From: Pseudomonadota bacterium
GTDB taxonomy: Bacteria > Pseudomonadota > Gammaproteobacteria > Burkholderiales > Burkholderiaceae_C
NCBI GenBank assembly: GCA_018241895.1
Contig: JAFECX010000035.1
Coordinates: 1-64,000, forward strand
Reading direction: 5' to 3'
Length of the DNA stretch: 64,000 nt
The notes under the pieces are model-generated. The model was not told where the DNA came from and searched no databases. It saw only the letters and a list, made by a program, of their open reading frames with translations. The translations under genes were made by a program, and so were the position numbers. Shown here piece after piece: positions 2,284 to 21,038 of this stretch (position 1 is the first letter of the stretch; each line of letters starts with the position of its first letter).

Positions 2284-5064
2284 TCACTTGCCCCATTCGG
2301 CAGCCAGCCGATCCACTTCGCCACGATGCGCGCTCTTTGCACCGGCCTTCTGAAGCTTGGCCAGTTCGCTACGCGCTTGGTCAGCCTGACCGCTACGCCA
2401 ATAGGCCTTGGCCAGCGTGAGCGTGTAGGTAAGATTGTCTGGGCCTAGCCGCTGGGCCTTCTGCGCGGCCTCGACGGCTGCTTTCGGGTCGTTTGCCGCC
2501 AGCAGAGCGCCAGCCAGTGTGTCGAGGTAGTCGGGCTTCTCCGGTTGCACTTCGACAGCGCGCTGCGCGTAGGCGAGACCCTGTGAATTCCCTCGTCGTA
2601 CCAGCACCCAGGCAAGGTTGTTGAGCGTCTGGCCGTCCCGCGGGTTGATCCGGCTTGCGACCAGGAGATGCCTCTCCGCGGCCTCCAGATCGGAGCGCAG
2701 GATCTCGATTTCGGCAGCATATTTCGCGAAACGGCTGTCCTGCGGATGGGCGGCGAGCCAGCCGTCGGCAAACGCGCTGGCCTGGGATGCCTTGTCCGCC
2801 GACGTCAGCGCCAGGAAGTATCGGGCCGGTGCCGGATAGGGCTGCTTCTTTGTCACGCCCGTCTTGAAGGCGGCGATGGCAGCGTCCTCGCGTTGACGCT
2901 TGACTTCGATTTCTCCTTCCGCGACCCAGCCGGCGGCATCGTCCGGCTCGGCCTTCTGCATCGATCGGGCCACCGCAATGGCCTCGTCCCAGCGCCTTGC
3001 ACGCACGTGCAGCGAAATCAGCTTGGCCTGCGCAAGCCTGCTGTCGGGCCGTATCTCGAGCGCCCGGTTCAGCGCTTTGAGCGCTTCGGCCTCCTGCCCA
3101 TCGTTCAAATAGACATCGGAGAGCCGCAGGTGCGGCAACTCCGACTTCGGCGCGAGCGACGCCAGCTGCGCGAAGGTGCTCTTGGCCTGCTGCAACTCGT
3201 GGCTGGCCAACTGGGCTGCGCCCAAACCATCGAGCACGTCCAGATCTTCCGGAAGGAGCGCGGCCGCCTCTTGCGCCGCCGCTAAGGCGCGCTTCGCCTG
3301 GCCTGCCTGCAGGAGAAATTGAATCAGTTGCACGCGCGGCCGCGGATCCAATGGGCTGGCCGAACCTGCCCGGTTGAGAATCCCGACGACCTCGTCGGTG
3401 GGTGCTTTCGCAGCGGCTCGGATCTGCGCGAGGGCCAGCAAGGCCGGAACGTTGCTCGGATCGGCCTGGAGCAATTGGGTGAATCGCTTCTGCGCCTCCG
3501 CGGGCTGGCCAGCGCCGATCGAGAGGAGCGCCAGTGCTTCGGCTGCCGGAAAGTACTTTGGGTCCATCGCCAGCGCCCGCTCGAACTGCGCCTTGGCGGC
3601 TGCCTGGCTGCCCTGCTCCAGCAGAATCCTGCCGCGCAGCGCGGGGACCGATGGATCGTTGGCCAACTTCTGCTGCAACCGATCGACTGCCCCGAGCGCT
3701 CGGGCGTAGTCCCGTCGCGATGTGGCCGCGCCGATCAGCGCCAGGTCGCCCACCACGCCAGGGTCTGCCGCCGCAACGGCTGCGAGCTCGGCGTACCCTT
3801 GTTCCGCCTTGCCCTGCGAGATTCGCATCAGCGCCGCTGCCGAGCGCAGCTGTGGGTCCTCGGGCGTCAGGCTGAGCGCCTGCAGATAGAGCGACTCGGC
3901 AGCCTTCATGTCGCCCAGCTCCATCTCCGCGCGTGCAGCAAGGGCCATCGACTCGGTGTCGCGAAGCTCGGCGGCCAGATTGGGCTTGAGTGTGCTCCGG
4001 GCCCTGTCCGGTCGACCCGTGGCGAGATAGACGTTCGCCAACAGCCTTCTCGGTAACACGCCATGCGGATCGGACTGAACGGCCCGCGTCAAGTGCTTCT
4101 CCGCCCTCGCCCATGAATGGGTTCGTGTCGCGATCATTCCCGCCAGGACCAGGCCCCGGACGTTGTCGGGTTGGATTCCCAACAGTCGCTCGCTGAAGTC
4201 GATGGCCGCCGCCAGGTCGCCCTTGAGGAAGGCGATACGTGCACCGTAATACAAGGTCGGCGGGCTCTGCGGCAGCAACGCCTTCATTTTCGCGAATTGG
4301 GCCTCGGCAGCGCGGATATCTCCCCGCGTGAGATAAATATCGATGATCCCCGCGTTGGCCGTCGGGTCCGCCGCTTTCAGCGCGATTACATGCTCGTAGG
4401 CGCTAAGCGCCTCCGGCAGGCGCTTTGCGTCGAGCCGCTTGATGTCGCCGCTCAACTGCCACGCCTCTAGATTTTCGGGCTCGCGCTCGAGAACACCTGC
4501 CACGATCGCTTCCGCGTGCTTCGGATCACCGGAAACCAGCTCGAGCCCCGCCTCCACGAGCTTGGCCCGAGCGTAATCCGGAGCGCTGGCAAGCGCTGTG
4601 GCGACCATTTCGCGAGCCTCGGAAAGCTTGCCGATCTTGAATAGCGCAAATCCGAGACTCGTCCGCAGATCGACCATTGAGGTCCGGTCGGCGATCTGCG
4701 TCGTGGACAGTCTCTTTATGACCTCGGCGAAGTCCCCTTGAGCAATCATGATGCGCGCCAACAACGGGAGCGTTTCGCTCTGCGGTTCTGCAGAATCAAT
4801 GGCCTTCTGGATCTCGATTCGTGCGCTAGACAACTCCCCCGTCGAATAGAGAACTCTTGCCATTAGCAGGTGCGCTGCTCCGGACGATGGGTTCTCCCTG
4901 ATGATGTTCTTCAATTGAATGCTCGCCGCATTCACATCCCCTCGTTCGAAATACGAGCGCGCCTCTGCAAGCGTCCCGGCAGTCGGCCCCTTCGAGCAGC
5001 CGGCTGCGGCCAGCGCCAGCGCGATCAGCAAGATTCCTGGCATTCTGGACAACATGATCTTCAT
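2284..5064 (-). CDS. prsT: PrsT-family PEP-CTERM system TPR lipoprotein (second copy)
   Basis: About 926 residues from the ATG at 5064, chosen because it gives a compact lipoprotein signal: MKIMLSRMPG, a hydrophobic core and the lipobox AAAGC with the acylated Cys at 23. A GTG at 5094 in frame would add ten polar residues. The rest is a long array of tetratricopeptide repeats (recurring LxxAxxxxPxxxxA patterns), the architecture and length of PrsT proteins that accompany exosortase loci and are proposed to act in exopolysaccharide export or matrix assembly. A paralogue of nearly equal length is at 13994. The two share fold and several segment motifs, but their N-termini differ. It is convergent with the membrane protein at 1612 and has a visibly lower GC than the paralogue. 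Confidence 0.88.
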   Translation of the reverse strand: MKIMLSRMPGILLIALALAAAGCSKGPTAGTLAEARSYFERGDVNAASIQLKNIIRENPSSGAAHLLMARVLYSTGELSSARIEIQKAIDSAEPQSETLPLLARIMIAQGDFAEVIKRLSTTQIADRTSMVDLRTSLGFALFKIGKLSEAREMVATALASAPDYARAKLVEAGLELVSGDPKHAEAIVAGVLEREPENLEAWQLSGDIKRLDAKRLPEALSAYEHVIALKAADPTANAGIIDIYLTRGDIRAAEAQFAKMKALLPQSPPTLYYGARIAFLKGDLAAAIDFSERLLGIQPDNVRGLVLAGMIATRTHSWARAEKHLTRAVQSDPHGVLPRRLLANVYLATGRPDRARSTLKPNLAAELRDTESMALAARAEMELGDMKAAESLYLQALSLTPEDPQLRSAAALMRISQGKAEQGYAELAAVAAADPGVVGDLALIGAATSRRDYARALGAVDRLQQKLANDPSVPALRGRILLEQGSQAAAKAQFERALAMDPKYFPAAEALALLSIGAGQPAEAQKRFTQLLQADPSNVPALLALAQIRAAAKAPTDEVVGILNRAGSASPLDPRPRVQLIQFLLQAGQAKRALAAAQEAAALLPEDLDVLDGLGAAQLASHELQQAKSTFAQLASLAPKSELPHLRLSDVYLNDGQEAEALKALNRALEIRPDSRLAQAKLISLHVRARRWDEAIAVARSMQKAEPDDAAGWVAEGEIEVKRQREDAAIAAFKTGVTKKQPYPAPARYFLALTSADKASQASAFADGWLAAHPQDSRFAKYAAEIEILRSDLEAAERHLLVASRINPRDGQTLNNLAWVLVRRGNSQGLAYAQRAVEVQPEKPDYLDTLAGALLAANDPKAAVEAAQKAQRLGPDNLTYTLTLAKAYWRSGQADQARSELAKLQKAGAKSAHRGEVDRLAAEWGK

Positions 5065-5443
5065 CACAAGCGTCGCTCTGGGTTCCTCAGCCACTCGGAA
5101 CGGCCCCGAAAAGTGCGAGCAGGACCAGATCCGAAGCTCGCCGCCTGGAGTGTCCTGAGGTGGGCAATGGGTGGACCATCAGGCCGTGTTCCGCGCGCAG
5201 ACTGCGCGGATGGAGGAGCATCACACGGAAAAACCAGACGCGGCAGTGTAGTTTGCACATCAGCCTGGGCGGCTGGGCAGTACGTCACGGCGCCGCACAG
5301 GCGGGGGACAGCCGATCGGCCGTGCATGAAGCCACAGCGCGATGAGCGCGCGCAGATTGCGAAGTGAAACGATGTGTGCTCAGCCTGCTCCGCGAACCCG
5401 CGTGCGTCTCGGCTAGACTCGCCTGCCTCTTCGGAGAGGAGCC
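5065..5443. other. Divergent intergenic region
   Basis: About 380 bp between the prsT-like gene (leftward) and the ABC ATPase gene (rightward). On the right side a -10-like hexamer TAGACT is at 5414-5419 and a purine-rich ribosome-binding stretch GGAGAGGAG at 5433-5441, just before the TTG start at 5444. No sigma-54 element was found facing leftward. No further gene is apparent. Confidence 0.5.
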
Positions 5444-8440: not shown

Positions 8441-10570
8441 CTAGACGCGCGCGAGCAGGTCCGAACCGCTGTGCACCTCGAACAGCGGCATCGTCAGCGT
8501 CACTTGCGAGCCGCGCCCGGGCTCGCTCGTCACGTCGATGCTGCCGCCGAGTTCTTTCAGGTACTGGAAGCTTTCGTAGGAGCCGATCCCCATGCCGCTC
8601 GCCTTCGTGGAATTGAAGGGGCGGAAGAGCCGGTTGCGGATGAACTCCTGGCTCATGCCGATGCCGGTGTCGCGCACGACGACCTGAGCCTGGCCGGCCG
8701 ACTGCTGCAGGCGCACCGCCACGGTGCCGGTGGCCGGCGTGGCGTCGAGCGCGTTCTGCACGACGTGGCCGATGACGCGCTCGAGGCGCTCCTCGTGCCC
8801 GCGCGTCGAGACGCGATCGGCGATCTCGAGATGCACCTCGCGCCCGCGCTGCGCGCTCAGCGCGCGGATGCGCTCGACGATGGGCGCCAGTTCGACCCCC
8901 GAGGCGACGCCGCTCGGGCGCTGGCCCTCGCGCAGCTGCAGCATGAGCTGGCGCATCCTGGCCAGCGAGTTCTCGACCGTGGCCAGCATGTCCTGCTGGA
9001 ACTCGGGGTTGTCGCGGTGGCGCTCGGCATTCTTCAGCATCAGCGACAGCTGCGTGACGATGTTCTTCAGGTCGTGCACGACGAAGGCCGACATGCGGTT
9101 GAAGGCCTCGAACTTGCGCGCCTCGAGCAGCGCCTCGGTGGCGTGCATCTTGGCGAGCACGCCGGCGGCCTGGCGCGCCGCGGTCTTGAGCAGGTCGCGC
9201 ATCTCCCAGTTGAGCCGGGCCGGTGAGCGCGAGTGCGCCAGCACGACGAAGCCGATCATCTCGTCGGCGACGACGAGCGGCACCACCAGCCAGGCCGCCG
9301 CGAGCGCCTGCAGCCACGCGGGCACGGCCTCGGCCTCCTCGCGCGGGCCGCTGGCGGCGCGCACGGCGTCGAGGTCGACGATCCATTCGCGCGGGTGGAC
9401 GAAGCGCACCAGCGCCGACTCGGCCGGGTCGGCCGGCTCGGCCTGCGTGGACTGGGGCAGGTTCCAGAACGCCGACGGCACGTAGCGCGCGTCGCCCGCG
9501 GCCTTGATCCACAGCCCGCCGGCGGGGCTCTCGACCAGGTCGGCCAGGCCCCGGACGACGAGCCGGCCCACCTCCTGCGGCGCGCTGCGCGAGGACAGCA
9601 TCGCCGTGAAGCGCAGCCACTCGACGCGGTAGTCGTAGCGGTAGCGCAGCAGGTGCTTGCCGACGAAGACGCGCACGCGCGCGCGCAGCGTGCCCGAGAG
9701 CACGAGCACACCCAGGCCGGCCCCCGCGACCGCGAGCAGCGCGATCTGCAGCGCGCCGCCCCAGCTGCCGCCGAAGTACCTGACGTAGTAGCCGGCGCCG
9801 GCCGCCACCAGCAGGTAGCCGCCCACCAGCAGCAGCGAGACCGAGTAGAAGGCCGCCGTGTTGGACATGCGCACCTTGTCCAGCCAGCCCGAGCGCCGGC
9901 GCGCGGCGACGACGAGGAAAGGCACCGCCAGGGCATGCACCAGCCCGCGCGCGCCCAGCGTGTCGATGTCGAACGTGCCGAACATCATCGCCTGCGAGTA
10001 CAGGTAGATGTCGTAGCCGAAGATGCAGGCCAGCCCCAGGCACAGCGGCTTGACCGCCCAGCGTGAGCCCTCGTCCTGGCCGCGGAACAGCTGCTCGACG
10101 AGGAAGAGACCCAGCACCGCCCAGCCGAGCTGGCTGGTCACCAGCACGCGCATCGCCAGCGCGTTTTCGGCCCGCACGCCGAGCACCAGGTCGGCGCCCA
10201 GCCCGGCTGCGGCCAGCAGCAGCGCGAGCGGCGCGACGAGCCTGCGACGCCCTGCCCGGCGCGCACCGGGCGGCGGCCCGGGCAGCAGCCAGGCGATGAA
10301 GAGCACCCAGCCCACGTAGCGCAGCTGGTCGCACGCGAGCGCCAGGTGCCATGGCAGCACCTTCGTCGACGCGAGATCCAGGGCGGCGAAGAGACCCCAG
10401 GCGGCACTGGCCGCCACGGCCAGCCAGAGGGCGCGCCGCGCGGGGTCCAGCGGCGCGCGCAGCGCGCCGGCACGCACCAGCTGCACGCCGTAGCCCGCAT
10501 AGGCCAGCAGCACCAGCAGGCAGCCGGTGAGCGCCAGCCCGGTCGAGAAATCGCCTGTGTGGACGAACAT
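8441..10570 (-). CDS. prsK: PEP-CTERM system sensor histidine kinase PrsK
   Basis: A 709-residue inner-membrane kinase, started at the ATG at 10570 (MFVHTGDFSTGLAL) because the upstream in-frame extension is not hydrophobic. Residues 1 to about 290 form a polytopic membrane region, then comes a GAF-like segment, then the phosphorylation motif FVVHDLKNIVTQL that is characteristic of PrsK, and an ATPase domain with VQNALDATP (N box), VRDTGIGMS (G1) and ASGMGIGSYE (G2). It is the cognate kinase of PrsR, whose gene lies at 12556. The pair controls sigma-54-dependent expression of PEP-CTERM proteins. The gene is convergent with the barrel gene and divergent from the sugar transferase gene. Confidence 0.93.
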   Translation of the reverse strand: MFVHTGDFSTGLALTGCLLVLLAYAGYGVQLVRAGALRAPLDPARRALWLAVAASAAWGLFAALDLASTKVLPWHLALACDQLRYVGWVLFIAWLLPGPPPGARRAGRRRLVAPLALLLAAAGLGADLVLGVRAENALAMRVLVTSQLGWAVLGLFLVEQLFRGQDEGSRWAVKPLCLGLACIFGYDIYLYSQAMMFGTFDIDTLGARGLVHALAVPFLVVAARRRSGWLDKVRMSNTAAFYSVSLLLVGGYLLVAAGAGYYVRYFGGSWGGALQIALLAVAGAGLGVLVLSGTLRARVRVFVGKHLLRYRYDYRVEWLRFTAMLSSRSAPQEVGRLVVRGLADLVESPAGGLWIKAAGDARYVPSAFWNLPQSTQAEPADPAESALVRFVHPREWIVDLDAVRAASGPREEAEAVPAWLQALAAAWLVVPLVVADEMIGFVVLAHSRSPARLNWEMRDLLKTAARQAAGVLAKMHATEALLEARKFEAFNRMSAFVVHDLKNIVTQLSLMLKNAERHRDNPEFQQDMLATVENSLARMRQLMLQLREGQRPSGVASGVELAPIVERIRALSAQRGREVHLEIADRVSTRGHEERLERVIGHVVQNALDATPATGTVAVRLQQSAGQAQVVVRDTGIGMSQEFIRNRLFRPFNSTKASGMGIGSYESFQYLKELGGSIDVTSEPGRGSQVTLTMPLFEVHSGSDLLARV

Positions 10571-10969
10571 GAAGCGGTTGGGGCAGGCAGCCCGGGTCGG
10601 GGCCGGGCATCGGCCGTGGCGCACGGACCACGACGGCAGGGCCGCGCGGGCCCCGACCGCCGGCCGCCGGGCCCCGGGCGCGCGTCACCGAGCCGGCATG
10701 GTATCGCCGGCACGCGGCCTGCCGTCCGCCGCGCCGTGAAGTTGTTCGCCGACGGCGCCAGCCCTGCGCCAAAGCGTTCGGATTTCTCTTCCCGACGGCC
10801 GATATGGCGGGCTACCCCCCTAACCGTGGGCTGTCGGCCGACGGTGCGGGTTCGTAAAGTCCCGAGTGTCGGATTACTTGACATTGTTACAAGCCCGGCA
10901 CATCCGGAAGGCCCGTGTCGCGCCTCGATCCCGGGTGCACAGAACGGTTGCAATTCCCCAGGAGCCTGA
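10571..10969. other. Divergent intergenic region prsK / sugar transferase
   Basis: About 400 bp with a less GC-rich middle part. TTGACA occurs at 10878-10883 inside a loose dyad TGTC-N9-GACA (10868-10883), a variant of the TGTC/GACA dyad seen upstream of the PEP-CTERM gene. No convincing -10 or sigma-54 element was found at the right distance. The Shine-Dalgarno sequence AGGAG at 10960-10964 serves the gene at 10970. No gene is apparent here. Confidence 0.4.
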
Positions 10970-12355
10970 ATGTCTCGAACGGTAAGCGATGCGTTGCGCC
11001 GGCTGTCCATGGCGCGCGCGTTCGTGGACGTCACCGTCGTCCTGCTGGCGGTGTACGCCGGCGTGCTGCTCGATGCCCGCACCGCGGGCGCCTCGCTGCC
11101 GGCCCTCGGCACGCGCGGCGTTTCGCTGGCGGCGGGCATCGTGTTCCTCAACGTGGCCACGGGGCTGTACGACGGCGCCGGGCGCCGCAGCCTGGCCTGG
11201 GCGTCGCTGCGCGCGCTCGCGGCGCTGGCGGTGGCGCTGCCGCTGGCCTACTTCGTGTTCCGCCTGCGCCCGGCCGGCCTGGCCGGTGTCGGCATGATCC
11301 AGTGGGCCGCGATGACCGGCGTGGCCGCCGTGATCCTGCACCGCGGCTACGAGGCCACCACGTCGGCGGTGCAGGCGCGCACGCGCCGGCGCACGCTGAT
11401 CTTCGGCAGCGGCGAGGCCGCGCGCGTGGTCGCCGAGACGCTGCGCACCTCCGACCCCGGCGCCGACATCGTGGGCTTCTACGCCGGGCCGAACGAGGGG
11501 CAGCCGGCGGTGCCGCCGGGCGAGCTGCTGCCGGCGACGCAGTCGCTGCTGGAGACGGCCGTCGAGCGGCGCGTCGACGAGATCGTGGTCGCGCTCGCCG
11601 AACGGCGTGCGGGCAGCATGCCGCTGCGCGAGCTGCTCGACTGCAAGCTGCGCGGCATCGGGGTGTACGACATCAACTCGCACTTCGAGAAGCGCCTGGG
11701 GCAGATCCGCATCGGCTACCTGCATGCGAGCTGGATGATCTTCGGCGACGGCTTCAACCAGGGGCTGGCGCGCACGGCCGTCAAGCGGCTGTTCGACATC
11801 GTCTGCTCGCTGGCGCTGCTCGCGCTGGCGGCGCCCGTCATGCTCCTGGCGGCCCTGGCCATCCGCCTGGACAGCCGCGGCTCGGCGCTGTACCGGCAGG
11901 AGCGCACCGGCAAGGACGGGCGTGCGTTCGAGATCATCAAGTTCCGCAGCATGCGCACCGATGCCGAGAGCGACGGCCGGCCGCGCTGGGCGGCGGCCGA
12001 CGACGAGCGCGTCACGCGCGTGGGCCGCTTCATCCGCCGCACGCGCATCGACGAGCTGCCGCAGCTGTTGTGCGTGCTCAAGGGCGACATGAGCCTGGTC
12101 GGCCCGCGCCCCGAGCGGCCGTTCTTCGTCGAGCAGCTCACGCGCGAGATCCCCTTCTATGCCGTGCGCCACAGCGTCAAGCCCGGCGTCACCGGCTGGG
12201 CGCAGGTGCGCTACCAGTACGGCTCGACGGTCGAGGATTCGCAGCAAAAGCTCCAGTACGACCTGTACTACGTGAAGAACCACTCGCTGTGGCTCGACCT
12301 GCAGACGCTGGTCGAGACGGTGCACGTCGTGCTCAGCGGCCAGGGCGCGCGCTGA
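10970..12355 (+). CDS. Exopolysaccharide sugar transferase, EpsB-like (PEP-CTERM associated)
   Basis: A 461-residue inner-membrane enzyme that would transfer a sugar phosphate to undecaprenyl phosphate, the first step of exopolysaccharide repeat-unit synthesis. The N-terminal half has four to five hydrophobic helices and a CoA-binding-like fold with [16 protein letters not shown]. The C-terminal bacterial sugar transferase domain shows the conserved blocks [34 protein letters not shown] and [15 protein letters not shown]. The latter closely match the PEP-CTERM-linked EpsB2 family. The start is well placed behind AGGAG. It lies between prsK and prsR, as in exosortase A loci. Confidence 0.9.
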
Positions 12356-12555
12356 ACGCAGGCCAGCAGCGCCAGGGCGGCGGCCCCGTTGCGCGGCCGG
12401 TATGGTCTCATTCGTCACGCCGGCGGCGGCCGATCCGGCATCTCGGCACGGTATCGTCGTTCCCTTGACGCGCGCCCGTTGACGCTGCCCACGCCGATCC
12501 CGAAGATCGGCCCGATTCGCCGCGCGCCTCGCGCCGCGTGCGTCACCTGAATTCC

Positions 12556-13944
<1,389 letters not shown>

Positions 13945-13993: not shown

Positions 13994-16768
13994 ATGCCCT
14001 TTTCGCTTCGGGCCGTGCTCGTGGCGCTCGTGCTGGGCACGGCCGCCCTGGCGGGCTGCCGCTTCGGTGCGAGCGCCGACGACGCCGTGGCCGCGGCGGA
14101 GAAGTCGGTGGCCGACAAGGACTACAAGTCCGCCGTGATCAGCGCCAAGAGCGCGCTGCAGAAGGAGCCGGAAAACGCCCGGGCGCGGCTGCTGCTCGGC
14201 CAGGCGCTGCTCGAAGACGATCAGCCGGCCGCCGCGGCCATCGAGCTGCAAAAGGCGCTCGAGCTCGGCGCGCCCGAGGCCAAGGTCGTGCCGCTGCTGG
14301 CGCGGGCCAAGCTGGGCACGGGCGCGACGCGCGAGGTCACGCTGGCGTACGGCGCCACCCGGCTCGACGACGCGCACGCCTCGGCCGACCTGAAGACCAC
14401 CGTGGCCACGGCCTTCCTGCTGCTGGGCGACAAGGCCGGTGCGCTCGACACGGTGCAGGCGGCGCTCAGGGAGTGGCCGCAATACGCGCCGGCCACGCTG
14501 CTGCTGGCCCATCTGAGCGCCGCCGACGGCGACGGCGCGCGCGCGCTGGCGCTCGCAGACGAGGTGCTGGCGCGCACGCCGAAGGACGGCAAGGCGCTGG
14601 CGCTGAAAGCCGCCCTGCTGCGATCGGTGAACAACGACGCCGACGGCGCGCTCGCGGCCTACCGCGCTGCGGTCGCCGCCGACCCCAGGCAGGCTGCGGC
14701 GCACGCCGAGATCATCGCGATGCTGCTCGAACGGCACGACGTCGCGGGCGCGAAGGAGCAGTTCGCCCAGCTCGCGAAGGCGTTGCCCAACCATCCGACG
14801 ACACTGCTCTACGACGCGCGGCTCGCCTATCTCGACAAGGACTACACACGCGCGCGCGACGTCGCCGAGCGGCTGCTCAAGAACTACCCGAACGACTGGC
14901 GCGCGCTGCTGGTGGCCGGGCTGGCCGAAGTCCAGCTCCAGCACGCGGCGAAGGCCGAGACCTACCTCGCCCAGGCCTCGAAGGCCAGGCCCGACGCCGT
15001 GCTGCCGCGCCAGGCGCTGGCGCAGCTGTACCTGCGCGCCGGGCGCGCACGCGACGCCATCGGCCTGCTGCAGCCCATCCTCGACGCCAAGACCCCGGAC
15101 GCCGAGAGCCTGACGCTGGCCGGGCTGGCCTACCTGCAGGCCGACGACCCCAAGCGCTCCGAAGCCGCCTTCGCGCAGGCTGCGCGGATCGACCCGAAGG
15201 CAACCACGGCGCGCCGCGCGCTCGCGCTCGGCCATCTGGCGCAGGGCAACGTCGAGGGCGGCTTCGCCGAGCTCGAGGCGCTGGCCAGCGAGGACCCGAG
15301 CGCCCGCAGCGCGATGGCGCTGGTGGCGGCGCGGCTGGCGAAGAACGACGTCGCCGGCGCACTCGAGGCGATCGACAGGCTGCAGGCCAGGCAGCCCGAC
15401 AGCCCGGTGCCGTACGCGCTGCGCGGCTCGCTGCAGGCACGGCGCAAGGACGCCGCGGGGGCGACGGCGAGCTTCGAGAAGGCGCTCGCGCTCGACAAGC
15501 GGTACTTCCCGGCCACCGTCGGCCTGGCCATGCTCGACCTGGAGGCGGGCCGGCCCGACGACGCGAAGCGCCGCTACGAGGACCTGCTGCGCACCGACCC
15601 GAAGAACATGCGCGCCGCGCTGGCGCTGGTCGAGCTGCAGGTGCGCGCCGCGGCGCCGGTGCAGGACGTGACCCGGGCGCTGGACGAAGTCATCCGTGCC
15701 CATCCGGCCGACGTGCTGCCGCGGCTGGCGCTGGTCAACTACCTGCTCGGGCGCAACGACGTCAAGGCGGCCGTGGTGGCCGCGCAGGGCGCCGTCGCGG
15801 CGCTGCCCGACAACAACATCTTGCTCGAGCGCCTGGGGGCGGCGCAGCTGGCCAGTGGCACGCCCGAGCAGGCCGCCGCCAGCTTCTCCAAACTGTCGGC
15901 CGCGCTGCCCGATCGCGTCGAGCCGCTGCTGCGCCTGGCCGAAGCGCAGGCCGCCGCCAAGGATCACGCCGCGGCGCAGCGCACGCTGGCGCGCGCGCTC
16001 GAACTCAAGCCGGGGCTCGTGCAGGCCCGGGTCGCCTCGGCGCGCATCGCGCTCGCGCAGGCCAGGCCCGAGGCCGCCCTGGAAATCGCACGCAGCCTGC
16101 AGCGCGAGTTGCCCAAGCAGCCGATCGGCTACGTGCTCGAAGCCGACGTCGCCGGCGCGCGCGGCCAGCCGGACGCCGCCGCCGCGGCGCTGCGCCAGGC
16201 CCTGGCCCACGGCGGCGGCTCCGACGTCGCCGGCCGGCTCTACGGCGCGCTGAACGCCGCCAAGCACGCCGACGAAGCCGAGCGCATGGCCGGCGCCTGG
16301 CTGAAGGACCATCCGAAGGACGCTCTCTTTCGCTTCGTCATGGGCGACGTGGCGCTGGCGAACGGACAGCTGGCCGCCGCCGAGGCCCACTACCGCGCGG
16401 TGATGGCGTTGCAGCCGGACAATGCGCTGGCGCTGAACAACGTGGCCTGGCTGATGGTGCGCCAGGGCAAGCCCGGCGCGGCGGCACTGGCCGAGCGCGC
16501 CAACGCGCTGCAGCCCGAGCGCCCCGCGCTGATGGATACGCTGGCCAGCGCACTGGCGGCCGAAGACCAGACCGCGCGCGCGATCACGGTGCAAAAGCAG
16601 GCGATCGCGAAGGCGCCCGACGACCCGGGGCTGCGCCTGAACCTGGCGCGGCTGTACATCAAGTCGGGCGACCGCCAGGGCGCGCGCGCCGAGCTCGAGC
16701 CGCTGTCCAAGCTGGGCGACAAGTTCGCCGCCCAGCAGGAAGTCGCCCGCCTGCTGCAGTCGCTGTGA
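13994..16768 (+). CDS. prsT: PEP-CTERM system TPR-repeat lipoprotein PrsT
   Basis: A 924-residue lipoprotein from the ATG at 13994, preceded by GGGGAG. The signal peptide MPFSLRAVLVALVLG ends in the lipobox ALAGC with Cys22. About twenty tetratricopeptide repeats follow. The composition is alanine-rich (GC-driven), unlike the less GC-rich paralogue at 2284. It directly follows prsR, the canonical position in the prsK-prsR-prsT gene group. Its proposed role is periplasmic scaffolding for exopolysaccharide export together with exosortase-processed proteins. Confidence 0.92.
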   Translation: MPFSLRAVLVALVLGTAALAGCRFGASADDAVAAAEKSVADKDYKSAVISAKSALQKEPENARARLLLGQALLEDDQPAAAAIELQKALELGAPEAKVVPLLARAKLGTGATREVTLAYGATRLDDAHASADLKTTVATAFLLLGDKAGALDTVQAALREWPQYAPATLLLAHLSAADGDGARALALADEVLARTPKDGKALALKAALLRSVNNDADGALAAYRAAVAADPRQAAAHAEIIAMLLERHDVAGAKEQFAQLAKALPNHPTTLLYDARLAYLDKDYTRARDVAERLLKNYPNDWRALLVAGLAEVQLQHAAKAETYLAQASKARPDAVLPRQALAQLYLRAGRARDAIGLLQPILDAKTPDAESLTLAGLAYLQADDPKRSEAAFAQAARIDPKATTARRALALGHLAQGNVEGGFAELEALASEDPSARSAMALVAARLAKNDVAGALEAIDRLQARQPDSPVPYALRGSLQARRKDAAGATASFEKALALDKRYFPATVGLAMLDLEAGRPDDAKRRYEDLLRTDPKNMRAALALVELQVRAAAPVQDVTRALDEVIRAHPADVLPRLALVNYLLGRNDVKAAVVAAQGAVAALPDNNILLERLGAAQLASGTPEQAAASFSKLSAALPDRVEPLLRLAEAQAAAKDHAAAQRTLARALELKPGLVQARVASARIALAQARPEAALEIARSLQRELPKQPIGYVLEADVAGARGQPDAAAAALRQALAHGGGSDVAGRLYGALNAAKHADEAERMAGAWLKDHPKDALFRFVMGDVALANGQLAAAEAHYRAVMALQPDNALALNNVAWLMVRQGKPGAAALAERANALQPERPALMDTLASALAAEDQTARAITVQKQAIAKAPDDPGLRLNLARLYIKSGDRQGARAELEPLSKLGDKFAAQQEVARLLQSL

Positions 16769-16792: not shown

Positions 16793-18058
16793 GTGGGCAG
16801 GTCGGCGGCCGCACGCCTGAAGCACCGGCTGCACGGTGCGGCACGGGCGCTGCTGGGCTCGCTGCCGCGCGCGACGCGCTTTCGCATCTACCGCGGCATG
16901 GTCGACTGCCCGCTGGCACTCGACGACACGTACGAGTTCGGCATCGCGCGCACGCGCGAGGACCTCGAGGCGTCGTTCGCCCTGCTGCACGACGCCTACG
17001 TGGCCAGCGGCTTCATGCCGCCGCATCCGAGCGGCCTGCGCGTGACGCCGTACCACGCGCTGCCGACGACGACGACGCTGTGCGCGAAGGTGGGCGGCAC
17101 CGTGGTCGGCACGCTGTCGATCGTGCGCGACGGCGTGTTCGGCTTTCCGCTGCAGACGGCGTTCGACATCTCGGCGGTGCGCGAGCGCGGCGGACGCATC
17201 GCCGAGATCTCGGCGCTGGCCGTGCATCCGGCGTATCGGCGCACCGGCGGCTCGATCCTGTTCCCGTTGATGAAGCTGATGTACGAGTACTGCACGCGGT
17301 ACTTCGACACCCGGCACCTGGTGATCGCCGTGCATCCGAAGCGCATCGAGTTGTACGAGTCGCTGCTGTTCTTCCGCCGCCTGACGGCGCAGACGGTGGC
17401 GCGCTACGACTTCGCCAACGGCGCACCTGCGATCGGCGCCACGCTCGACCTGCAGGAGGCGCCACAGTTGTTCCGGCGTGCCTATGGCGGCAGGCCGGCG
17501 CGGCGCGACCTGCATCGCTACTTCGTCGAGCTCGAACTGCCGAACATCGAGTTTCCGCTGCGCGAGTGGAACGTCAGCAACGACCCGGTCCTGACGCCGG
17601 CGCTGGCCGATCACTTCTTCAACGTCCGCACGCAAGGCTTCACCGAGCTCGACGAGCGCAGGAAGCGGCTGCTGCACTCGATCTACGACGGACCGGCATG
17701 GGCCGCCGTGCTGCCGCGGCTCGCCAGCCCGCCGCCACCGGGCAGCCAGTTGCGCCGCACGCCGCGCTACACGTTCAAGTGCCCGGGTACGGTGGCGCCG
17801 TCGACGGGGTCGGGCCCGACACAGGCGATCACGATCGTCGAGGTGTCGAGAAACGGCCTGCGTGCGCGCATCGACGCGACACTGGAGGTGGGCACGCTGC
17901 TCACGGTGCAGGCCGAACTGGGCGCCGGGCGTCAGACCCGGGTGCAGGCGCGCGTGGCCGTCGCCACGCGCACCTACGACGGCCCGGCCTACGGCCTGCA
18001 CGTCGCGGCGCCCGATGCGGCCTGGCTCGACTGCGTCGCCTGGCTGGAGCGTGCCTGA
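16793..18058 (+). CDS. PEP-CTERM/exosortase-associated acyltransferase fused to a PilZ domain
   Basis: A 421-residue protein from a GTG at 16793 (weak ribosome-binding site; an ATG at 16898 is an alternative). Residues to about 300 form a GNAT-like fold of the FeeM / exosortase acyltransferase type: RTREDLEASFALLHDAYV, RIAEISALAVHPAYRR and LVIAVHPKRIELYESLLFF. Such enzymes are thought to make N-acyl amino acids or acylate a matrix component. Residues about 315-421 form a PilZ domain: LRRTPRY supplies the RxxxR switch (R321, R325) and EVSRNG (350-355) the SxxG motif, with Glu in place of the usual Asp/Asn. PilZ domains bind cyclic di-GMP, so the acyltransferase is likely under second-messenger control. 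It lies 24 bp after prsT. Confidence 0.85.
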   Translation: MGRSAAARLKHRLHGAARALLGSLPRATRFRIYRGMVDCPLALDDTYEFGIARTREDLEASFALLHDAYVASGFMPPHPSGLRVTPYHALPTTTTLCAKVGGTVVGTLSIVRDGVFGFPLQTAFDISAVRERGGRIAEISALAVHPAYRRTGGSILFPLMKLMYEYCTRYFDTRHLVIAVHPKRIELYESLLFFRRLTAQTVARYDFANGAPAIGATLDLQEAPQLFRRAYGGRPARRDLHRYFVELELPNIEFPLREWNVSNDPVLTPALADHFFNVRTQGFTELDERRKRLLHSIYDGPAWAAVLPRLASPPPPGSQLRRTPRYTFKCPGTVAPSTGSGPTQAITIVEVSRNGLRARIDATLEVGTLLTVQAELGAGRQTRVQARVAVATRTYDGPAYGLHVAAPDAAWLDCVAWLERA

Positions 18059-18156: not shown

Positions 18157-18912
18157 ATGGCCCGCTGGACGCGCCGCAGCTTCACCGCAACCGTGCTGCT
18201 CGCCGCCGCCGCGCGCGCCGACGTGCCGGCGTTGATCGACCGGTTGCGCGGCGCCGTCGTGCCGGTGGGCACCTTCAACGCGCTCGACAACCCCCGCTTC
18301 GCCTTTCGCGGCAGCGGCTTTGCGGTCGATGACGGCCGGCTGCTGGTCACGAATTCGCATGTCGTGCCGGAGGATGCGCCGGCCAGCGGCCGGCAGTACG
18401 CAGTGCTCGCGCCGCGCGCCGGCGGCGGGCGCGAGGTGCGCATCGCCACGCTGCAACGGCTGGACCGCACGCACGACCTGGCGCTGCTTCAGGTGGACGG
18501 CCCCCCCTTGCCCGCCCTCGAGCTGGCGGCGCCCGGCAGCGTGCGCGAAGGCCTGGACGTGCTGCTGGCCGGCTTTCCGATCGGCGGCGTGCTCGGCTAT
18601 TCGATGGTCACGCACCGCGGCATGCTGTCGTCGATCACGTCGATCGCGCTGCCCTCGCCGAACGCGCATCAGCTCAGCGAGCGCGCGCTCAAGCAGCTGC
18701 GCGACGGCCCGTTCGAGGTCTACCAGCTCGACGCGACGGCGTACCCGGGCAACAGCGGCGGGCCGCTGGTCGACGCACGCGACGGCAAGGTCATCGGCGT
18801 CGTCAACATGGTGCTGGTGCGCGGCACGCGCGAGTCGGCGCTGAGCAATCCGACCGGCATCACCTACGCGATCCCGGTGCGCTTCGTGCGCGAGCTGCTC
18901 GAGCGGCAGTGA
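18157..18912 (+). CDS. Trypsin-like serine protease
   Basis: A 251-residue exported protease from the ATG at 18157. The N-terminus MARWTRRSFTATVLLAAAAR resembles a short signal peptide with a twin-arginine-like start. The catalytic triad is visible: H68 in TNSHVV, D107 in RTHDLALL and S200 in PGNSGGPL. The domain is a single chymotrypsin-like fold without a PDZ module, so this is not a full DegP/HtrA. Such proteases often accompany exosortase loci. A -10-like hexamer TAGACT at 18084-18089 may mark its promoter. Confidence 0.85.
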   Translation: MARWTRRSFTATVLLAAAARADVPALIDRLRGAVVPVGTFNALDNPRFAFRGSGFAVDDGRLLVTNSHVVPEDAPASGRQYAVLAPRAGGGREVRIATLQRLDRTHDLALLQVDGPPLPALELAAPGSVREGLDVLLAGFPIGGVLGYSMVTHRGMLSSITSIALPSPNAHQLSERALKQLRDGPFEVYQLDATAYPGNSGGPLVDARDGKVIGVVNMVLVRGTRESALSNPTGITYAIPVRFVRELLERQ

Positions 18913-18940: not shown

Positions 18941-19714
18941 TCAGTTGAGCGCCGGCGATGCCGGCTGCTGGGCGGCCATCAGCCGCGCCACGATGCCGCG
19001 CTCCTCGTCCGGCGTGAAAGCCAGCGGATACAGCGAGCGCTCGGTGCCGGCGCACTCGGGGTGCCCGCCGAACTCGCGGATGCATGAGGCGATGTAGTCG
19101 AAGCCGAGCGAAAGCAGCACCGCGGGCGCGTTGACTGCGCGGTTGATGCGCTCGCTGCCGATCACCTGCGCACCGAGCATGCGCTGGTAGTAGCGCACGT
19201 GGCGCGGGTTGACTTCCATCACCAGGCGATCGCGCCCGCGCAGCAGGTGCGCGACGATATGGGCAACGTGGAACAGGGCCGCCAGGACGCGCTTGTTGCC
19301 GGTGATCGGGTCGATCGCCAGCTTGGTGAATTCGCACAGGCGCTGGCCGGCCTGACGCAGCGCGTCGAGCTCGTCGCCGAACGCATCGTCGCTGTTCATG
19401 CCGGCCGTGTCGTCCAGGCCCACAGTGATGGTGCCGATGGCCACGCCGTTCTCGAGCGCCGTCAGCGTCGTGCGGCTGCTGGTCTGGTTTGCCGGCAGGC
19501 TCACCGTGTGGTAGCCGCGCCAGCCGTAGCGCTCGCGCAACAGGCGGTTGGCAGACTGGCGCACGATGAGCGACTCGGCCGACTCGATCGTGAAGCGGCG
19601 CTCGCTGTCGTCGGTGACGGGAGGCTCGCTCGGCTGGCGCTGCCCGGACGGCATGCGCGCCCGCAGCGACGTGCGAGGCTGGAAGCGTGCGGCGATGAGT
19701 GTCGTGGATACCAT
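18941..19714 (-). CDS. FeeM-like N-acyl amino acid synthase / GNAT-type acyltransferase
   Basis: A 257-residue protein from the ATG at 19714 (MVSTTLIAARFQP). The core shows FTIESAESLIVRQSANRLL, ALENGVAIGTITVGLDD, LCEFTKLAID and LVMEVNPRHVRYYQRMLGAQ, the pattern of the FeeM-type N-acyl amino acid synthases that take acyl groups from acyl carrier protein. It resembles the N-terminal half of the protein at 16793 in layout but lacks a PilZ domain. It ends 28 bp from the convergent protease gene, placing two acyltransferases of related type in one surface-polymer locus. Confidence 0.75.
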   Translation of the reverse strand: MVSTTLIAARFQPRTSLRARMPSGQRQPSEPPVTDDSERRFTIESAESLIVRQSANRLLRERYGWRGYHTVSLPANQTSSRTTLTALENGVAIGTITVGLDDTAGMNSDDAFGDELDALRQAGQRLCEFTKLAIDPITGNKRVLAALFHVAHIVAHLLRGRDRLVMEVNPRHVRYYQRMLGAQVIGSERINRAVNAPAVLLSLGFDYIASCIREFGGHPECAGTERSLYPLAFTPDEERGIVARLMAAQQPASPALN

Positions 19715-20021: not shown

Positions 20022-21038
20022 CTACGGGCGTCCGGCGCCGTAGTACCCCGTGTACCACTCGACGAAGCGCCCGATCCCGGTGCGGATGTCCGTCGCCGGC
20101 ACGAAGCCGACCCACTCGCGCAGCGCATCGACGTCGGCGTAGGTGGCGGGCACGTCGCCATCCTGCAGCGGCAGCATGTTCTTTTCGGCCTTGCGGCCGA
20201 GCGCGTCCTCGATGCAGCCGACGAACTCCATCAGCTCCACCGGGTTGTGGTTGCCGATGTTGAAGACGCGAAACGGCGCGTTGCTCGTGGCCGGGTCGGG
20301 CGCCGCGGCGCGGTAGGCCGCATCAGGCGTGGCGGTCTTGTCGAGCACGCGGATCACGCCTTCGACGATGTCGTCGACGTAGGTGAAGTCGCGCCGCATC
20401 TTGCCGTGGTTGAAGACGTCGATCGGCCGTCCTTCGAGGATCGCCTTCGTGAACAGGAACAAGGCCATGTCCGGCCGCCCCCACGGCCCGTAGACCGTGA
20501 AGAAGCGCAGGCCGGTGGTCGGCAGCCCGTACAGGTGGCTGTAGGTGTGCGCCATCAGCTCGTTGGCCTTCTTGGTGGCGGCGTACATGCTCACCGGATG
20601 GTCGACGCTGTCGCGCTCGGAGAACGGCATCTTCGTGTTGCCGCCGTACACGCTCGAGCTCGAGGCGTAGACCAGGTGCTGCACCTGCGTATGGCGGCAG
20701 CCCTCGAGCACGTTCATGAAGCCGACGACGTTCGCCTCGACGTAGGCCTGCGGGTTGACGAGCGAGTAGCGCACGCCGGCCTGCGCCGCGAGGTGGATGA
20801 CGCGGTCGAACTTCTCGCGCGCGAACAGCGCCTGCATGCCGCCACGGTCGGCCACGTCCAGCCTGACGAAGCGGAATCCGCGCTGCGGCTCGAGGCGCGC
20901 CAGGCGATCGAGCTTGAGCTTGACGTCGTAGTAGTCGTTGAGGTTGTCGAGGCCGACGACCTCGTCGCCGCGCGCCAGCAGGCGCTGCGCCGCGGTGCTG
21001 CCGATGAAGCCGGCGGCGCCGGTGAGCAGGATTTTCAT
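20022..21038 (-). CDS. UDP-glucuronate 4-epimerase-like NAD-dependent epimerase
   Basis: A 338-residue extended SDR enzyme from the ATG at 21038. TGAAGFIG at the N-terminus binds NAD. The catalytic set is SSSSVYGG and [15 protein letters not shown] (YxxxK). [18 protein letters not shown] is diagnostic of the UDP-glucuronate/galacturonate epimerase branch. It would supply UDP-galacturonate for exopolysaccharide or lipopolysaccharide, matching the neighbouring sugar transferase locus. A -10-like GAGAAT lies only 8 nt before the start codon, with no Shine-Dalgarno sequence. Confidence 0.88.

Follow-up and report, generated by a model that had tools for sequence, protein, structure and literature searches.

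An N-acyl amino acid synthase with a C-terminal PilZ domain encoded directly behind prsT in an exosortase-type locus

The stretch of DNA analysed here, 64,000 nucleotides in length and referred to below as the window, carries an exosortase-type locus in which the genes for PrsK, an EpsB2-type sugar transferase, PrsR and PrsT are followed by a gene for a two-domain protein and then by one for a trypsin-like peptidase (Table 1). PrsK, PrsR and PrsT are families defined by Haft et al. 2006 (PMC1569441), and floc formation in Aquincola tertiaricarbonis has been reported to require both prsT and epsB2 (PMC9850573). Only 24 nucleotides separate the stop codon of PrsT from the start of the two-domain protein. 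An earlier note on this DNA had placed the gene next to PrsK, PrsR and exopolysaccharide genes, and this placement holds, with PrsK, EpsB2, PrsR and PrsT all scoring above the cut-offs of their families. In the window, PrsK is divergent from EpsB2, while in the relatives that carry the whole cluster it is found on the same strand, between EpsB2 and PrsR.

Table 1. Features of the exosortase-type locus and of the two-domain protein encoded in it (positions in the window)
Feature	Position	Strand	Evidence
PrsK histidine kinase	8441..10624	-	TIGR02916 753.7 bits, cut-off 300
EpsB2-type XrtA-associated sugar transferase	10970..12355	+	TIGR03013 480.3 bits, cut-off 393.35
PrsR, sigma-54-type response regulator	12538..13944	+	TIGR02915 698.5 bits, cut-off 502.6
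PrsT, XrtA/PEP-CTERM TPR protein	13994..16768	+	TIGR02917 661.8 bits, cut-off 312.2; lipobox-like N-terminus
N-acyl amino acid synthase with C-terminal PilZ domain, 421 aa, GTG start	16793..18058	+	ORF, Pfam, model
FeeM (N-acyl amino acid synthase, GNAT-like) domain, residues 61-219	16973..17449	+	Pfam PF21926; fold match 2g0b
Codon of E138, candidate catalytic glutamate	17204..17206	+	aligned with FeeM 2g0b glutamate; conservation
Linker region, residues 220-318, mostly helical	17450..17746	+	secondary structure of model
PilZ domain, residues 319-421 (Pfam match 319-404)	17747..18055	+	Pfam, models, fold matches
RxxxR motif, R321-R325	17753..17767	+	both R invariant in 29/29
ExSxxG motif, E350-G355	17840..17857	+	conservation in alignment A1
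Trypsin-like peptidase, conserved downstream neighbour	18157..18912	+	Pfam Trypsin_2 E 2.6e-24 in containing ORF

The description of the protein as the acyltransferase of the exosortase locus is correct in one respect and needs two corrections. The locus is indeed of the exosortase type, but the protein does not belong to the exosortase acyltransferase family TIGR03694, likewise an acyltransferase family tied to exosortase systems, since it scores 13.5 to 14.6 bits against a cut-off of 111.95; it is of the FeeM type instead, and no TIGR03694 copy above the cut-off was found in the genome of the window. The exosortase XrtA itself lies elsewhere. It is absent from the ten ORFs scanned between positions 21038 and 40152 of the window and is encoded, above its cut-off, on another contig of the same genome (G000:C36:36032-36805, minus strand), so in this genome the exosortase may be separated from the regulatory part.

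The ORF at 16793-18058 encodes an N-acyl amino acid synthase of the FeeM type that ends in a PilZ domain. Pfam assigns residues 61-219 to FeeM (E 3.6e-44, 150.8 bits against a cut-off of 27), and an amino acid is, as had been suggested, the likely substrate for acylation. Among solved structures, FeeM (2g0b) was a match in a phmmer search (E 4.8e-7), and E138 aligns there with the glutamate of the AEVVQ segment of FeeM. The same residue is invariant in all 29 sequences of alignment A1, which consists of the window protein, 27 loci from genomes of the same family and one Azonexus metagenome-assembled genome; left out of the alignment were one relative with FeeM domain and linker but without PilZ (L032 in G068, 49% identical) and one with FeeM only (L034 in G100). 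An AlphaFold2 model of the full-length protein, made with 29 aligned sequences, reached a pLDDT of 87.1 and a pTM of 0.84. Residues 44-228 of this model had FeeM 2g0b as their best fold match (Z 20.4, 175 aligned residues, 2.3 A), followed by acyl-homoserine-lactone synthases such as BjaI and LasI with Z about 16. The two proteins thus share a fold and an aligned glutamate, but the solved FeeM chain has neither the linker extension nor the PilZ domain and is 23% identical to the window protein in the structural alignment. The linker is kept in the PilZ-less relative L032. Residues 43-300 were matched by NCBIfam NF011425, a hypothetical-protein model of 989 positions, with 75.2 bits, far under its cut-off of 1337, and since this sub-threshold match covers both the FeeM domain and the linker, the linker may accompany the FeeM domain more widely in this subgroup.

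The comparison of the whole model with VIA covered little past residues 44-248, and the C-terminus was therefore folded alone. The model of the C-terminal 111 residues (AlphaFold2, pLDDT 90.4) is clearly of the PilZ type. The top Foldseek matches include BcsA with cyclic di-GMP, MotI/DgrA, VCA0042 with cyclic di-GMP and MapZ, and VIA-align gave Z scores of 14.6 to MotI/DgrA, 12.6 to VCA0042 and 12.6 to the PilZ domain of CeSA. The first 32 VIA-align matches, at Z 14.6 to 9.2, are PilZ proteins, with the exception of the uncharacterised protein 4q63, and from the 33rd match onward Z is 7.6 or lower. Many of the PilZ structures matched were solved with cyclic di-GMP. At the sequence level, Pfam found PilZ at residues 319-404 of the full protein (E 4.2e-7, 30.7 bits, cut-off 22.5) and in the C-terminus alone (E 2.5e-8), while a phmmer search of the C-terminus against PDB sequences gave spurious-looking matches only and the A2 profile gave zero matches in the same set, although the fold comparison is clear. 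Structure prediction thus bears out the PilZ fold that the earlier note had proposed for residues 315-421 of the acyltransferase, and FeeM and PilZ both exceed their curated Pfam cut-offs.

The earlier note had regarded this fusion as undescribed, which is not the case. Thies et al. 2016 (PMC4897644) reported the same architecture for Nas343 and Nas354, in which a FeeM-like domain at the N-terminus is followed by an unassigned stretch at 200-278 and by a PA4608-like PilZ domain, and they also proposed regulation through PilZ and cyclic di-GMP, while stating that the function of the PilZ domain could not be related to activity. Expression of Nas354 in E. coli, with no added ligand reported, gave a biosurfactant phenotype with N-acyltyrosine as the product, and the exchange E103A abolished the phenotype (PMC4897644). 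The window protein resembles Nas343 and Nas354 in the order of the two domains, in the catalytic glutamate and in the next gene, which after the Nas354 gene is likewise an ORF for a putative peptidase (PMC4897644). It differs in its setting, as Nas343 and Nas354 come from metagenomic clones whose host is not known, and the authors presume no biosynthetic operon and, in the parts of the paper available to us, describe no prs locus. The kinship rests on architecture, residue numbering and the neighbouring gene. Subtracting 35 from 138 gives 103, and the window protein has a methionine at position 36, which would fit Nas354 being a homologue annotated from that methionine. Among open-licence PMC papers, the only one that we found on the fusion is Thies et al. 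2016 (PMC4897644), and it is absent from the available parts of PMC7726332 and PMC11511702. N-acyl amino acid synthases have been linked to PEP-CTERM/exosortase by Craig et al. 2011, judging by the title, and the available text of Thies et al. 2016 (PMC4897644) mentions the exosortase link for other synthases only; we found no placement of the PilZ form in an exosortase locus in the open-licence PMC literature. The fusion and the regulatory proposal are thus already in print, and the observation is real and well conserved but largely known.

The canonical ligand motifs of PilZ domains are RxxxR and (D/N)xSxxG. In the window protein, R321/R325 and E350-V-S-R-N-G355 stand at the residues that had been named, the first matching RxxxR and the second starting with E rather than with the canonical D or N. 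R321, R325, S352 and G355 are invariant in 29/29 homologues, while position 350 holds a glutamate (E) in 27 of them and D in two. This conservation stands out because, of four segments compared, the PilZ domain shows the lowest conservation (mean majority fraction of 0.53 versus 0.84 for FeeM): only six of its 86 columns are invariant, and four of these six belong to the five motif positions (hypergeometric P 3.5e-5, with columns treated as independent). A PilZ-like motif arising by chance was ruled out by the motif invariance, the confident model of the C-terminus and the PilZ fold matches. Judged from conservation, R321, R325, S352 and G355 are predicted to be contacts for cyclic di-GMP.

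Some of the evidence would also fit a PilZ domain that no longer binds cyclic di-GMP and serves as a structural C-terminal cap, leaving the synthase under transcriptional control only. The glutamate in place of D/N in most homologues, the existence of a relative that does without PilZ and the failure of the Pfam PilZ model to match more than 21 of the 29 homologues at E 0.01 all count against control by cyclic di-GMP, and PilZ-like folds whose binding is trivial are known (title of 3dsg, among the VIA-align matches). The activity of Nas354 in E. coli, where no ligand was reported to be added, suggests that the synthase may work without cyclic di-GMP. E. coli does produce a certain amount of the messenger itself. 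We nevertheless consider a purely structural role very unlikely, because four ligand positions are invariant within an otherwise fast-changing domain and because RxxxR...ExSxxG is also kept in six copies from four genomes that belong to a different family within the order.

The fusion has a narrow distribution. A protein search in the family of the window gave matches in 29 of 150 genomes, 28 of them close (E below 1e-70, the window's own included) and one, G100, weak and with FeeM only; G068 is the PilZ-less one among the 28 close matches. In a phylum-wide sample, two of 398 genomes had a match and one of these was the window's own, whereas FeeM itself is present in 67 of the 398, and the PilZ profile derived from A1 matches only this synthase-PilZ family among the loci fetched from that FeeM search. 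A profile search across the order, a kind of check proposed in the earlier note, found matches in 10 of 399 genomes, with full-length matches in six (the window's own included) and FeeM only in four. Scanning genome contigs added one relative only, the Azonexus metagenome-assembled genome, with 54% identity. The fusion thus looks like a single clade concentrated in one taxonomic family.

The position of the gene behind prsT is shared by many of its relatives. We compared 28 relative loci from 27 genomes, one genome contributing two and the locus of G068 being without PilZ. PrsT was directly upstream and on the same strand in 15 of these loci, as in the window; prs genes were found elsewhere in the stretch in four and were absent from the fetched stretch in nine, some of the contigs being short. 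The peptidase was the next gene in 16 of the 28 (13 on the same strand, three convergent). At the genome level, within the family, PrsT scores above its cut-off in 27 of the 28 genomes with a close homologue versus 40 of 150 overall (Fisher P 7e-19, ignoring relatedness), and XrtA in 27 of 28 versus 39 of 150 (Fisher P 2e-19, ignoring relatedness). The exception is the same for both, G040, a genome that is 74% complete. The converse does not hold, as 13 genomes with PrsT and 12 with XrtA have no close homologue of the synthase. What these comparisons usefully add to the published fusion is its conserved position behind prsT and its close co-occurrence with XrtA. In G094, which belongs to the same genus as the window's genome, the gene order (locus L065) is EpsB2-PrsK-PrsR-PrsT-PrsT-peptidase with no gene for a synthase-PilZ protein, which has been lost or replaced there.

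The tight co-occurrence with XrtA and PrsT could also indicate that the acyl product becomes attached to a component of the matrix or of the PEP-CTERM kind, or that it serves as an aminolipid precursor, which would make the protein a matrix- or envelope-modifying acyltransferase, much as the earlier note suggested. This alternative concerns the product and is compatible with either role of the PilZ domain, and a review that lists FeeM and related synthases beside aminolipid N-acyltransferases (PMC11631085) lends it some weight. We find it quite unlikely, given that Nas354 alone yields N-acyltyrosine in E. coli (PMC4897644) and that no signal peptide was visible by eye at the N-terminus of the protein, which makes it unlikely that the synthase reaches secreted proteins.

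With moderate confidence, we propose that the gene encodes a two-domain synthase of the Nas343/Nas354 type that is modulated by cyclic di-GMP and works within the XrtA/PEP-CTERM matrix programme. The FeeM domain would move a long acyl chain to the amino group of an amino acid by means of E138, with acyl-ACP as the most likely donor, as proposed for FeeM, and tyrosine as the most likely acceptor. The PilZ domain would use R321/R325 and the ExSxxG loop to bind cyclic di-GMP, and binding would alter the activity of the synthase such that the N-acyl amino acid is made in the matrix-building state, where it would presumably have a role in the matrix. The synthase gene is probably co-transcribed with prsT and would in this way be part of the XrtA/PEP-CTERM programme, although the nine of 28 loci that lack prs genes in the fetched stretch and the locus of G094, which lacks the synthase, count against such a tie. 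The stronger claim that cyclic di-GMP-gated synthesis of N-acyl amino acids is a regular, co-transcribed element of this programme in one family is one that we make only tentatively.

How cyclic di-GMP would act on the enzyme is a separate matter. According to Thies et al. 2016 (PMC4897644), PilZ domains mostly work by way of protein-protein or protein-DNA contacts; the synthase gene is tied to prs and eps genes with membrane-linked products, and the linker between the two domains is mostly helical. These features are consistent with a PilZ domain that binds cyclic di-GMP as a docking or localisation module, bringing the synthase to the inner-membrane exopolysaccharide and exosortase machinery with its catalytic rate unchanged. 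Such docking seems rather unlikely to us, since the high pTM of the full-length model suggests a defined arrangement of the domains that would allow direct allostery. Other systems show partial parallels to the window protein. In BcsA and Alg44, whose PilZ domains are both among the fold matches, a PilZ domain is likewise joined to the synthesis of a matrix product, but the catalytic parts and the products differ from those of the window protein. Thies et al. 2016 (PMC4897644) cite another synthase under second-messenger control, in that case with a different messenger.

If this stronger claim of a regular, cyclic di-GMP-gated element is correct, the messenger that activates the matrix would also turn on, by direct binding, the production of an acyl-amino-acid surfactant or signal, and this synthesis would be in step with the sorting of matrix proteins. 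Cyclic di-GMP and the exosortase system would then be connected directly by an enzyme, a link of which we found no description in the open-licence PMC literature. With a synthase that carries a likely receptor for cyclic di-GMP behind prsT, floc formers amenable to genetics offer a way to test the hypothesis of joint switching, in which matrix-protein sorting and acyl-amino-acid production are switched in concert. The conserved position behind prsT also points to a possible native setting for Nas343 and Nas354, which have been studied biochemically but are orphans.

The window holds a further copy of two of the protein families discussed here. A second PrsT-like TPR protein is encoded at 2284-5094 on the minus strand and matches TIGR02917 above its cut-off (588.8 bits at 2350-5031). 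A second FeeM protein, with a single domain and without PilZ, is encoded at 18941-19714 on the minus strand, convergent to the peptidase and two genes from the fusion; the containing ORF matches Pfam FeeM with an E value of 2e-45, and its nearest relative among the stretches compared is a protein from G100 (L066, 50%).
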